Program-made: the position numbers and the translations under genes
Shown here: positions 17,432 through 63,832 of the stretch, piece by piece
Layout: every line of letters begins with the position of its first letter
How positions within the stretch are numbered: the first letter of the stretch is position 1
Origin: Apostichopus japonicus
Lineage: Eukaryota > Echinodermata > Holothuroidea > Aspidochirotida > Stichopodidae
NCBI RefSeq assembly: GCF_037975245.1
Contig: NC_092577.1
Location: 30,469,398-30,533,397 of the forward strand
Length of the DNA stretch: 64,000 bases
Direction: 5' to 3'
Notes under the pieces: model-generated
The model's database searches: none
What the model saw: only the letters and a program-made list of their open reading frames with translations
What the model was told of the DNA's origin: nothing

Positions 17432-17511
17432 GTCATGAAGAATGACAAAGAGGTGTCCCGTGGATTTGGCTTTGTCTGCTTCCCCTCAGAAGTAGAGGCC
17501 ACCAACATCTG
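17432..17511 (+). pseudogene. PABPC exon 7 fragment (RRM4, RNP1 half)
   Basis: Begins at a proper acceptor (CTTCCCAG) and reads [17 protein letters not shown], the RRM4 RNP1, then departs from the paralogues after EVEAT. The following bases match intron 7 of unit B (about 45857 onward), so a deletion removed the rest of the exon, its donor and the start of the intron. Confidence 0.85.
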
Positions 17512-18041
17512 CTTAGCTTTGATCAACATTACGCTCCACCCCCCCCCCCTTTGCCCACAAAGAAAATATGGTCTATGGCCCGACCCACATATTCTTAATC
17601 CAGACCTGCTTGTCTCGTTCAACTACTGCAGACGTTTTGATGGCTCTATCACTGAAACATTCAGAAGGCTGTCAAATCCATAAAGTTCCACAACATCCAT
17701 GGATAGTTCCTGTGAAAGAAGACCAGTCAGTGTTCTGTTCATAAAAGATCAGAGATATTATTGAAATCGAATATCTAATAAAGTGCTGCTTTAAAAAAAA
17801 ATTGTGCTAGTGATGAGCAACAGGTTGTGAAAATCTTTTTGACCATATTTTAATAATATTGTTCTTACTAGCAAGGAGAATCGGAATTGTTGTGTAGACG
17901 TGTCCTAAGTATTTTGTCCTTACAATTTTTGTAGAGTCTTTGAAAGAATTTTACTTTCCTGTATTGTCAATGGTCTGTTTTGGTAGTTAAACTAATAGAC
18001 CTTATGCTAGTCTTTTGAGGGAAGATTTTAACTATTAGCTC

Positions 18042-18365
18042 TAATAATAATAATAATAATATTGTAGATTTATAAAGCGCAGACATATCCACCGATAACT
18101 TCGGTGGTCAAGGTGCATCACAATATTACCCTGGTCAACGCTAACCTGTCAAACATATAGAGACAATCCCTCCACATGGCAGCAGCTAAACAGCGCCCAG
18201 TTGAGTTTATCTCACAGGTACCCATTTATACACCTGGGTGAAGAGAGGCAATGGAGATAAAGTGCCGTGCCCAAGAACACGACGCAATGATCTGGTCAAG
18301 CCTCGAACCTGCAATCCTTATATCACAAGTCCACTGCCTTAACCACTTGACCACAACGCTCTCCG
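18042..18365 (-). mobile_element. tRNA-derived SINE (minus strand)
   Basis: On the minus strand it starts with a tRNA-like head: TGGTCAAGTGGTTAAGGC (A-box region), then GGTTCGAGGCT (B box). A body follows with CACCCAGGTGTATAAATGGG, ending in an (ATT)n tail, which appears on the + strand as AATAATAAT at 18043-18060. The paralogous intron in unit B (about 46391) lacks it, giving an empty site; flanking GCTCT is repeated on both sides. Confidence 0.8.
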
Positions 18366-59239: not shown

Positions 59240-59270
59240 TTCGTAAGCCTCTCATCCATAACTATTCAAA

Positions 59271-62200
59271 ATGAATGCCGCTGGTCCAAACTATCCAACT
59301 GCCTCTCTCTATGTTGGTGACCTTCATCCTGAAGTTACAGAAGCTATGCTGTTTGAAAAATTTTCAACCGCAGGGCCCATTGTGTCCATCCGTGTTTGCC
59401 GGGATATTGCATCCAGGAGATCCCTTGGATATGCATATGTTAACTTTCAACAGCCTGCTGATGGTAAGTAATCATAATTTACTTATGACAATAAATGGAG
59501 TTATTTTGCTTTATTCTATTTCAAAAGATAACTTCTAGATTTTACATGATCAAAAACTTGTGGCAAATAGATTGAAACTACTGTTGTTTGCTGTGCAGTG
59601 TGCACAGTACAATTCCGAGAGAAAGCCCACACCTGTTATGCCCATAGTCCTTTTTAATAACCAGTATTGTTTGAGCTAGCAGCCAAAACTTTGATGTCCT
59701 CTTTACAGAAGAGAGAATATTGTGATTTTCCTTACCATCCCCTATATGAAAGATCATCAAGGGACTCACAAGATCAATTTTTTTTTAACCTTTTCCTTAT
59801 TTTCTGAATTAAGAAAAGAAATGTTTTTACTATGGTGATGTCTGAGGTCTGCAAAATTGTCTCTCTGTTCCGGAGTTGTAAAAACTAGGTGTTAACCTAC
59901 TAACTGCTTTATCACACTCTCTTATAGCGGAGAGAGCTCTTGACACTATGAACTTTGATGCTATAAAGGGTAAGCCCATTCGTATCATGTGGTCGCAGCG
60001 TGATCCAACCCTCAGGCGATCTGGTTTGGGAAATGTCTTCATCAAAAATCTTGACAAATCCATCGACAACAAAGCTATGTACGATACCTTCTCTGCCTTT
60101 GGCAACATCTTGTCATGTAAGGTAAGCACACCTTGAACTTGATACAGTTGTAGCTGTAGTGTTTCTTTATGAATATTTAATGGATGCTGATTTTCCATCT
60201 TGATGACACATATACGTGATGTTTCCACGAACAGTGTGGAATTTTCTTTTCTGTATATAGGTTTCACATTGTCTGCCACCAGCATATCCCTTCTTGATCA
60301 AATTTGATCTTATGATAAAAAAAAAGAGTTGCATCGTTCATTTACAACAAGCTAACACAGTGTATATATTGGTTATGGTAAAAAGCCTCACAGTTGCTTG
60401 CCCAAGCAACTGATATTGGTTGGCAAATGTGATGTGGAATCTCATATTATGGCCAAAATCTGTATTTTTATTTGTTCTTTTTAAAACTCAATTTATAAGT
60501 AACATGCAAGCACAAAGATTGTTACACCATTTCCCCCTCCCTGTCTCCCTTTGATTTGTTGCTTTTGTTATAAGATATAGAGCCACTATCACTGACAACT
60601 TCCATGTTATGCTACCCCGTTTACAGGTAGCTACTGATGAGAATGGTGAAAATCGTGGCTATGGGTTTGTACATTTTGAAACTGAAGAGTCGGCCTTGAA
60701 AGCCATCAAGAAGGTCAATGGAATGTTGTTGAACGGCCGAAAAGTGTAAGTTTACCATTTAATTCTTTGTCTTTGTAAACACATACAATATAAAATGATC
60801 TTGTAATTTATTCTTGTTGCTGTCATTTCATGTGATGCTAAAGGAAAGACATCAACAGGCTAGTGCTCAGTGATTGTTTGATGTAATATATTCGTCTCCT
60901 GTGTGCATATTGTCACAAACTAACTTTTTTTTTAAAAACTCAAAGAAGTGTGTTTGTATTTTCATCTTTTGATTTAACCCTTTAAACAGCTTTGTAGGAA
61001 AGTTCATCCCTCGACGTGAGCGAAGTTCAGGTACCGGCGACCATGCACGGAAGTACACCAATGTTTACATAAAAAACTTTGGTGTGGAACTGGGCGAGGA
61101 AGAACTACGACAGATATGTGAATCCTATGGAAAGATCCTGTCCCTTAAAATAATGTCGGACATGGAAGGCAACTCCAGAGGCTTTGGATTTGTTTCGTTT
61201 GAAAGCCACGACGCAGCCATGATGGTAAGTGGACTTTTCAACTATCTTAACTTGTACCTTGTAATGATTGAATTGCCACATGTGGAGCACAGCATCTTGT
61301 AGTCTGGAAAATAGCTGAGTACAGCCTCTTGTAGTGTGGAAAATAGTGGAGTACAGCCTCTCATAGTTTGGGAAATAGTGGAGTATAGCCTCTTGTAGTC
61401 TGGAAAATATTGGTTTGTACAGCCTATTGTTGTCTGGAAAATACTGGAGAACAGCCTCTTGTCTGGAAAATACTGGAGTACAGCCTCTTGTTGTTAAATA
61501 AGGTAAATGGTTTTTGAGCTAATAGCTAGAATGCTCTCTCCAAATTGCTTAGATAGAAAGGTACTGTTTAGTGTTAGTTTCATATAGAAGGTGTACCTTT
61601 CAGCCTATTTTTTTTCTTCCGTTATCAGTGTGTAGAGGATATGAATGGTAAAGATCAAAGTGGCAGACAACTCTTTGCTGGACGAGCCCAAAAGAAATCT
61701 GAGAGAAGCGCTGAGCTTCGTGCTCGATTTGAAGCTATTCGTCAGGTAGGTGTCACACACAGTCACGAAGGATGGGTCACGGACAAGCTGGAAATGCCCC
61801 CAATTCTGTTCAATCCAAAGTAGTTCATGATGGGATGCATTTATAGCTGTTACATACAAAATGATATTTCTTTTTATCTTCTGCTTGGATTTTGAGCGGT
61901 ATCGTAATCTGTACTTGGGAAAACTCGTTCATTCCAGAATTATTTATTAACAGTGTTGTTAAAACTGTATAGCAGTTAAATTTCTGATGATATACACATG
62001 GTTCCCACTTTGTCTGGAAGACGGGAACATTAGGTAAAAGGAAAAGGAAAGGTCTCTCATCTAGGTCTTGAGAGTCACTGAAGTTTAGTCTGGAAAAGTC
62101 AGGAAATTCCTCATACGAAGACTTTTTGTCTGATATGACGTTTTTTCGAGCAAGACTTGTGAGATGAAGATAATGGCATAAACCAAACTGGTGAAAGTTG

Positions 62201-63832
62201 TGGCTACAACATGTCATGTTTAGGGTTCATGTTACATTAATTGTTCCCCTCACCCTCAAAAATTAATAAATGAAGGGTGAGGGGGAGGGTGGTTGGCATA
62301 CCTTTTGCAAGAGCTACAGTCATTAGACTTACTGTAGGAAGCTGGCTTAAATGAGGTCGTCATTAGTTTGTATGTGCTGGATAGTAGTCTTGAAGTTTGC
62401 TTACCTCGTGAACTTGAAGGATTCTGTTGTGTTCACCTCCATTCCTAACTTACTGATGGAAGTAATCGCTTCTAGCATGGTGGAGGCTACCCTTTTCATG
62501 AGTAAAATACCTTTCCAAACAGCTCTACAAGGTGCACCCAACCCTTCCCCCCCCCCCCCCCCATAAGGAAACAATGACACTGTCCACTGTGATGGTTTTG
62601 TCCATTTTAACCCTTGCCACATAACTGCACTTTTGCAGTTGGCTCCTGACACTAACAACACATTTGGAGCAAACGTGCATAGCATTGTGTAAGATTCAGG
62701 AGGTGAGGCAGAACCTAGTGGGAAAGACACCAAAGTGTTGTCACTTACTGAACCTTAAAAATTCCTACAGCTTGCAACAACTTGTCAGGTGTTATTGTAG
62801 GGTTAAAGAAATTAATTGAAAGCCATGCATCCAAGGAATTTATTTTGTTTCATGTTCTTAAAAGTTCAAGGGAGCCAGACGCCCTAACTTAGCTTGCTGC
62901 TTGTTTTTAGTGGCTTTGGGTTCATTGGAATCCTATGCATAAATCATGTAGATGATAGAGAGGCAAAGTTCTCTTTTGTTATTCTTCACAAAGTGTTTCC
63001 ATTTTATCAATTGACAGGAGAGAAGCAATCGTTTTCAGGGTGTGAACCTGTACATCAAGAACCTTGATGATGACATCGACGACGAACGACTCAGAAAAGA
63101 GTTTGCTCGTTTTGGCAACATCACCAGTGCCAAAGTAAGATTTTGTATTTGCCACTCTATGTGTATGTTGTCTTTTTGTGAATAATGTACAAGTTACCGT
63201 TTTGTCTCGGTAAGCTTGGGGAAGGATGTTCAGTGAACTCTGCTATAATCGGCCATGTCTGTCGGCTGAATAATTTAACCTGTGTATCGTATTGTATAAT
63301 GCTGTGCAAATTGGTCATATATCCATGCAAGTCCCAACAGATGTATGGTAGATTTCCTTTTACGCAAAGGAACCATAGAATTTATCAGAGACAAAATTCA
63401 GAGCGTAGAAAACTGCTACATAAAAATTTGCAAGTTATCTGTAAGCAATAGGGCTCATCACACATTGACCCAAAGTTTTATAGTCTCAATCCACAGTAGT
63501 ATTTATTTTGTTGGTCAGAATGGCACTATTTTGTGATCTCAGTGATAGTTACCTTCTCGCCCTTTTCCTCTTTTGGCCATCTTTGGTTAGTAATGTATGT
63601 ATATTCTCTTACATCTACTTCCCAGGTCATGAAGAATGACAAAGAGGTGTCCCGTGGATTTGGCTTTGTCTGCTTCTCCTCACAAGAAGAGGCCACCAAG
63701 GCAGTGACCGAGATGAATAACCGCATCATTTCCGTCAAACCGCTGTATGTGGCCCTGGCCCAGCGCAAGGAGGTTCGACAAGCCCAGCTGGCCACTCAGT
63801 ACATGAGATTGAACATGAACTATAGAGTTCCA
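59271..63832 (+). CDS. PABPC1-like: poly(A)-binding protein, cytoplasmic, unit C (intact RRM1-RRM4, 3' end outside window)
   Basis: Exons: 59271-59463, 59928-60121, 60627-60745, 60990-61224, 61629-61745, 63018-63134 and 63626-63832. All GT-AG, phases agree, 394 codons open to the last donor GTAAGT (63833). RRM1: SLYVGDL and [13 protein letters not shown]2: NVFIKNL and [11 protein letters not shown]3: NVYIKNF and [11 protein letters not shown]4: NLYIKNL and RGFGFVCF, closing with [12 protein letters not shown]. The linker and MLLE exons must follow beyond 64000. PABPC coats mRNA poly(A) tails in the cytoplasm, supports eIF4G-dependent translation and controls deadenylation. ATG context is CAAAATGAA, identical in unit B. 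It is the best-preserved of the three copies and the only one likely to give a full protein. Confidence 0.93.
61279..61495. repeat. about 30-bp minisatellite (ACAGCCTCTTGTAGTCTGGA)n, intron 4 of unit C
   Basis: Paralogue of the array at 39720-40038, with about seven imperfect units. Confidence 0.9.

Follow-up and report, generated by a model that had tools for sequence, protein, structure and literature searches.

It is textbook knowledge that segmental tandem duplicates can undergo birth-and-death evolution and interlocus gene conversion. Vertebrates have PABPC paralogs without the C-terminal domain, PABPC5 among them. For REC114, PMC9278955 describes Caenorhabditis elegans DSB-1 and DSB-2 as duplicated Rec114 orthologs that arose early within Caenorhabditis and are both needed for normal break levels. 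Here we analyze a stretch of 64,000 nucleotides from the sea cucumber Apostichopus japonicus (C17:30469398-30533397 of a 671,581,487-base, 35-contig genome; hereafter the window), in which PABPC and REC114 genes recur in tandem as copies A, B, and C. We consider it highly probable that the locus arose via segmental tandem duplication with unequal decay of the copies.

Tandem copies of PABPC and REC114, probably as a divergent pair

A preliminary description of the window had proposed a tandem array marked by four pairs of landmarks, and self-comparison of the window finds all four where it had placed them: a “transposable element (TE) segment” (13468-14540 and 33438-34497; offset 19,970; 95.7% identity), a relic of PABPC exon 5 (27277 and 48061, in a block at 26914-27362 and 47703-48146; offset 20,789; 91.4% identity), the PABPC start codons (38294 and 59271; offset 20,977), and the REC114 last exons (29880 and 51270; offset 21,390). 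The copies are linked by kilobase-scale collinear blocks, which across the window and 100 kb on each side are 79-97% identical, with offsets mostly of 18-22 kb and of 24-28 kb for the blocks of PABPC-A1 in copy A. One long block (28012-31781 and 49397-53186) extends over 3.8 kb at 93.8% identity, far beyond chance; it has the length (at least 1 kb) and identity (at least 90%) of a segmental duplication for this part of the unit only, many other blocks being 79-90% identical. PABPC exons were located using a human PABPC1 sequence as query. REC114 was first recognized by eye on the minus strand and then confirmed by Pfam and by matches to three solved REC114 chains. Both gene identities given in the preliminary description are supported. 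The genes of the two fuller units are:

59271-64000, plus strand: PABPC-C as far as the window reaches, with exons 1-7 at 59271-63832; exons 8-11 lie past the window, with the stop at 67068.
51270-54743, minus strand: REC114-C, 234 residues, exons 54743-54636, 54067-53984, 53409-53326, 52925-52758, 52209-52135, and 51455-51270.
38294-47427, plus strand: PABPC-B, nine exons, an open frame of 458 residues with canonical splice sites.
29880-32719, minus strand: REC114-B, 203 residues, open, exons 32719-32612, 32053-31970, 31520-31353, 30800-30735, and 30065-29880.

Copy C holds the complete pair. PABPC-C, whose exon joins all carry GT and AG, comprises 11 exons, spans 7.8 kb, and encodes 623 residues with the full PABPC architecture of four RRM_1 stretches and an MLLE domain at 540-605 (Pfam). 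A 623-residue protein labeled “lgn”, presumably from the Logan assemblies, is identical to PABPC-C at 622 of 623 residues, differing at residue 482; as its contigs measure at most 3,142 bases although the gene spans 7.8 kb, the match would reflect a spliced transcript. REC114-C has six exons joined in phase 0 throughout, matches the REC114-like family PF15165 over the whole profile (1-236 of 236, 109.8 bits), and is matched by the three solved REC114 chains at residues 4-129.

Searching the genome in six frames with a 391-residue part of PABPC-C (all 55 candidates scored) returned 25 matches, 17 of them in the array at 55-100% identity and eight elsewhere at 25-35%, which we read as other RRM proteins. 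Matches to the MLLE family PF00658 number six, three in the array and three elsewhere (C22 twice, C17:10.75 Mb); none of the three outside sites coincides with PABPC exon matches, and they were rejected as PABPC genes. The match at C17:10.75 Mb looks, from its letters, like UBR5. All ten REC114 exon matches genome-wide (10/10) fall in the array and belong to REC114-B and REC114-C, so that there are two REC114 genes and not one in each of three units, as had been supposed. Seemingly the only complete PABPC gene of the assembly stands at the end of an array with signs of continuing sequence exchange.

Earlier, the unit had been taken to pair PABPC on the plus strand with a convergent REC114 on the minus strand. 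This pairing straddles a unit junction, and the unit is best read instead as the REC114 3' flank, REC114, the intergenic region, and PABPC up to its MLLE acceptor, because the right end of the array is the complete divergent pair REC114-C/PABPC-C with nothing after it, and PABPC-A2 of copy A and PABPC-B end correspondingly. The array extends from ~13468 to ~67068, the PABPC-C stop 3 kb past the window end. Further units past 64000 were not found: apart from the remainder of PABPC-C, none lies in 100 kb on either side, as far as the flanks can be read; on the left, N fills two stretches of 2,500 bases. Likewise, no REC114 exon match occurs in the 96 kb right of PABPC-C, where only repeats also present inside the locus match. 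The array itself is free of N, which in the 264 kb examined occurs only at -27499..-25000 and -2499..0. Both runs are exactly 2,500 long and one ends at the window start; each may be a gap or a masked stretch.

Two shortened open genes in copy B

The preliminary description had called copy A ruined, B truncated, and C intact. The three states hold, but both genes of copy B are still open with canonical splice sites. PABPC-B lacks 653 genomic bases of C (59344-59996), which fuses exons 1 and 2 in frame and removes residues 25-87 (63 codons of RRM1). It further has four codons fewer in exon 5 and one plus three fewer in the linker, the branch of the single-codon change being unclear. At its 3' end, the acceptor is kept where the MLLE exon of C begins and is followed by AFKSLKFPNIC and a stop, 11 residues that replace MLLE. 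Pfam accordingly reports three RRM_1 stretches and no MLLE, short of the four RRMs and MLLE of a PABPC. PABPC binds poly(A) mainly through RRM1-RRM2; to judge from the residues, poly(A) binding by PABPC-B would probably be affected by the RRM1 loss and by the change F143L in RNP1 of RRM2. Two Holothuria leucospilota proteins named polyadenylate-binding protein 1 (P0128, P0129) have RRM listed and no MLLE Pfam domain, one of them also with zinc-finger RING-type families. Sea cucumbers may have acquired PABPC relatives without MLLE on more than one occasion.

REC114-B lacks exon 2 (84 nucleotides, in frame) and nine nucleotides of exon 5, again with canonical splice sites. Its translation is identical to P0122, an NCBI A. 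japonicus protein, a caution for annotators, as one of the species' named REC114 proteins derives from a shortened paralog. P0123 (BSL78_23760, from an earlier A. japonicus assembly) mixes both copies, exon 2 being present together with the short exon 5 of B; it may be another allele, a converted copy, or a haplotype of other structure. Structure prediction gave REC114-B a mean predicted local distance difference test score (pLDDT) of 41.0, with N-terminal blocks at 27-62 and fewer strands, and the full-length relative P0124 a mean of 56.6, with eight N-terminal strands and a helix at block pLDDT 41-83 in residues 11-140. Both models derive from the same seven REC114 sequences, a shallow alignment with differing queries, and give only hints that the PH domain of REC114-B may be damaged.

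Over 447 PABPC codons, copies B and C differ at 37 amino acids, with synonymous divergence (dS) 0.080, nonsynonymous divergence (dN) 0.041, and a ratio (omega) of 0.51. These values rest on a fixed pairing of codons in place of an automatic one that misaligned the tail (dS 0.109), omega being 0.51 either way. For REC114, B and C show dS 0.073 and dN 0.028 over 203 codons, unpolarized. Polarization of the PABPC changes with P0002 and P0003 (89% and 87% identical to PABPC-C) initially counted 31 B-derived, three C-derived, and 14 unresolved changes; once six B changes falling in the misaligned, unrelated tail (522-538) are removed, the count is 25 in B versus three in C (two-sided binomial P 2.7e-5). 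With dS split evenly and replacements shared 25:3, omega is ~0.91 for PABPC-B and ~0.11 for PABPC-C, on small numbers. Sixteen of the 25 changes fall at residues invariant in all eight PABPCs compared, six of them from echinoderms, and include the RRM2 RNP1 aromatic (F143L) and H145Q. PABPC-B thus appears nearly free of constraint at the amino-acid level.

Two points nevertheless weigh against simple duplication and decay. The coding length changes of PABPC-B and REC114-B relative to C are all multiples of three, as are only 23% of 95 non-coding indels. In a neutral simulation (20,000 runs each), the PABPC-B frame stays open in 1%, 0.02%, and 0% of runs when B takes 0.25, 0.5, and 0.6 of the divergence. 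The absence of stops alone accounts for 27%, 7%, and 5%, respectively, so that the weight of the simulation rests on the indel rate derived from introns, which may overstate the expectation for exons; exon ends were moreover chosen partly to keep the frame open. Subject to these caveats, there is more frame preservation in B than simple decay predicts.

Such frame preservation is what one would expect if copy B encoded working modifiers that compete with the full-length proteins, a PABPC missing RRM1 and MLLE and a REC114 that has lost the exon-2 portion of its PH domain while keeping the C-terminal region. The open frames and canonical splice sites of both genes, the in-frame-only length changes, and the rarity of an open PABPC-B frame in the neutral simulation fit this explanation, as does the NCBI record, which holds REC114-B as a protein and, as REC114 “isoform X2” of A. 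japonicus (P0121), a sequence identical to REC114-C minus exon 2. A near-neutral replacement rate in PABPC-B, with most changes at invariant residues, argues the other way, and no PABPC-B-like protein is found among the 120 best matches listed, where clustering at 90% could conceal one. We therefore regard working modifiers as unlikely. A bolder form, in which copy B would be a young module of dominant modifiers that hard-wires the exon-skipped REC114 isoform and tunes germ-line translation and meiotic breaks, strikes us as distinctly improbable. Under duplication with unequal decay, copy B is relaxed, and its open frame hints at a coding role, past or present, short of demonstrating one; the middle copy would capture both genes partway from decay to a potential new role.

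Copy A, sequence exchange, and assembly of the array

Copy A consists of three nested, broken PABPC 3' ends in tandem plus an exon 7 fragment. An exon search of the window and flanks found no PABPC exon 1-6, the exon 5 relic apart, and no REC114 exon in this copy. Its parts, with the relics and inserted elements of the array, are:

13468-14540, plus strand: left end of copy A, a REC114-PABPC intergenic piece of an 813-base dispersed repeat and 259 further bases.
17385-19727, plus strand: PABPC-A1, with an exon 7 fragment (17385-17505; 3' part and donor lost), an intron-7 piece (18366-18590), and, from 19361, most of an MLLE exon, still open.
21728-23931, plus strand: PABPC-A1', the second 3' end, with an exon 11 piece (22666-22840), then the exon 9 region and an MLLE exon (23446-23676).
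24306-26300, plus strand: PABPC-A2, the third 3' end, with an exon 11 piece, the exon 9 region, and no MLLE.
27254-27359, plus strand: A-side PABPC exon 5 relic, located in the 3' flank of REC114, with an in-frame stop.
48038-48143, plus strand: B-side relic of PABPC exon 5, with the stop of the A-side relic plus one more.
48144-48797, plus strand: dispersed element resembling a DNA transposon, with inverted ends and CTGAG on both sides, inside the B-side relic.
34635-35140, plus strand: 5' end of U2 small nuclear RNA (first 60-odd bases) fused to a dispersed repeat and lying between the two genes of copy B.

The left end, described before as a TE segment, is dispersed only in its first 813 bases (38 further copies among the best 40 scored of 1,468 candidates). 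The next 259 bases match at 97% only at 34238-34497, with three 76% relatives on C8 (5/5 candidates scored), so the pair counts as part of the array. As A1 and A1' carry MLLE exons, the 3' end was complete in one or more earlier copies. The exon 5 relics carry a common stop, and the relic had therefore died before the A/B copying. The element at 48144-48797, of which 39 further copies occur among the best 40 scored of 1,968 candidates, lies inside the B-side relic with a CTGAG word on each side and was thus inserted after the duplication. The U2 chimera is the source of the only Rfam match of the window. At 39 further scored loci of the repeat body the match starts after the U2 part, one of them having a head-like 86% match ~200 bases off on the opposite strand. 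Another 39 loci match nothing but the U2 part; accordingly, the junction looks like a one-off template-switch chimera. Tandem repeats of 143-147 bases lie beside each of the two PABPC-A MLLE exons (18695-19142, 23867-24529), and a 9-base unit is repeated 34 times at 6667-6969 (96% matches).

PABPC-A2 and PABPC-B have one junction in common, the acceptor of the PABPC MLLE exon joined to the distal REC114 3' flank: the end of A2 at 25990 corresponds to the B junction at 47392, and both continue into that flank. A segment holding REC114 (minus strand) and its divergent neighbor PABPC (plus strand) would have been duplicated head-to-tail more than once on one chromosome, and an upstream copy made via the common junction would lose its MLLE; this is the order of events we infer. 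Decay would then have been unequal, C keeping full PABPC and REC114 genes, B two shortened open genes, and A three nested PABPC 3' ends.

Divergence between B and C is patchy. In non-coding sequence it amounts to 10.1% over 4,257 sites at the PABPC locus, with 12.9 indels per kb, versus 4.7% over 3,322 sites in the REC114 3' block (chi-square P ~4e-18). The figure drops to 0-3.2% at 27357-28763 and to 0.4-3.2% at 30529-31536 in windows of at most 250 bases, part of the latter tract being dispersed repeat. Such tracts suggest gene conversion or later exchange, and conversion probably maintains the likeness of B and C in places. Conversion from C is possible for REC114-B exons 4 and 5, which lie inside a low-divergence tract. 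It is not favored as what holds the PABPC-B exons open, since exon dS (0.080) is near the intron divergence (0.10).

Near-identical tracts might also be expected if the extra units had been created in assembly, with alternative haplotypes or misjoined copies set one behind the other; the hybrid structure of P0123 and the larger size of earlier A. japonicus assemblies (804.9 and 952 Mb versus 671.6 Mb; PMC10344927) point the same way. The same paper reports a 671.60 Mb HiFi/Hi-C assembly, very probably the present one, and, if so, HiFi coverage at 64x with 14.7 kb mean reads speaks against an artefact. So do the absence of N from the array, the ~10% non-coding divergence at PABPC, and the different structural and domain losses of each copy. 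Both REC114 proteins moreover lie on an NCBI A. japonicus contig whose length differs (37,207,079 versus 37,194,397 bases), a support that may not be independent. False duplication of haplotypes is unlikely, and we judge an artefact of either kind very improbable.

The preliminary description had further seen a translation factor and a meiotic-break factor being co-amplified, with a different fate for each copy. That both genes occur in each of the two fuller units would fit selection for joint amplification, for instance for germ-line dosage. A single full-length copy was found for each gene, no REC114 exon is found in A, and B has lost parts of both genes, which is nothing like a dosage gain; with no sign of such selection, we give selected co-amplification almost no credence. 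No functional link is needed, as the genes are neighbors, and under segmental duplication their co-amplification would be a by-product of adjacency without joint function.

Comparison with known systems

Among the papers listed, none describes a PABPC-REC114 array, by title and start of abstract, and none of the REC114 alternative-splicing papers found treats an exon-2 isoform, by title and abstract. Searches on Apostichopus PABPC, on F142V in PABP RRM2, and on PABPC5, PABPC1L2, and MLLE jointly returned nothing, and a search on echinoderm REC114 only a mouse paper. PABPC-B resembles PABPC5 in being a PABPC copy without MLLE, but it also lacks RRM1 and keeps introns and linker. DSB-1/DSB-2 (PMC9278955) likewise stem from duplication of REC114, one copy being conserved and the other evolving faster, whereas REC114-B lacks a PH-domain exon and any role it has is putative. 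The closest likeness in form is birth-and-death evolution of tandem duplicates, with head-to-tail multi-gene units, unequal decay, patchy similarity, and later transposon insertions. The locus differs in that its unit joins two unrelated, otherwise single-copy genes and that one copy keeps two shortened open frames. Collectively, the array is a case of ordinary gene duplication and decay, in which the shortened pair of copy B is the point of interest.

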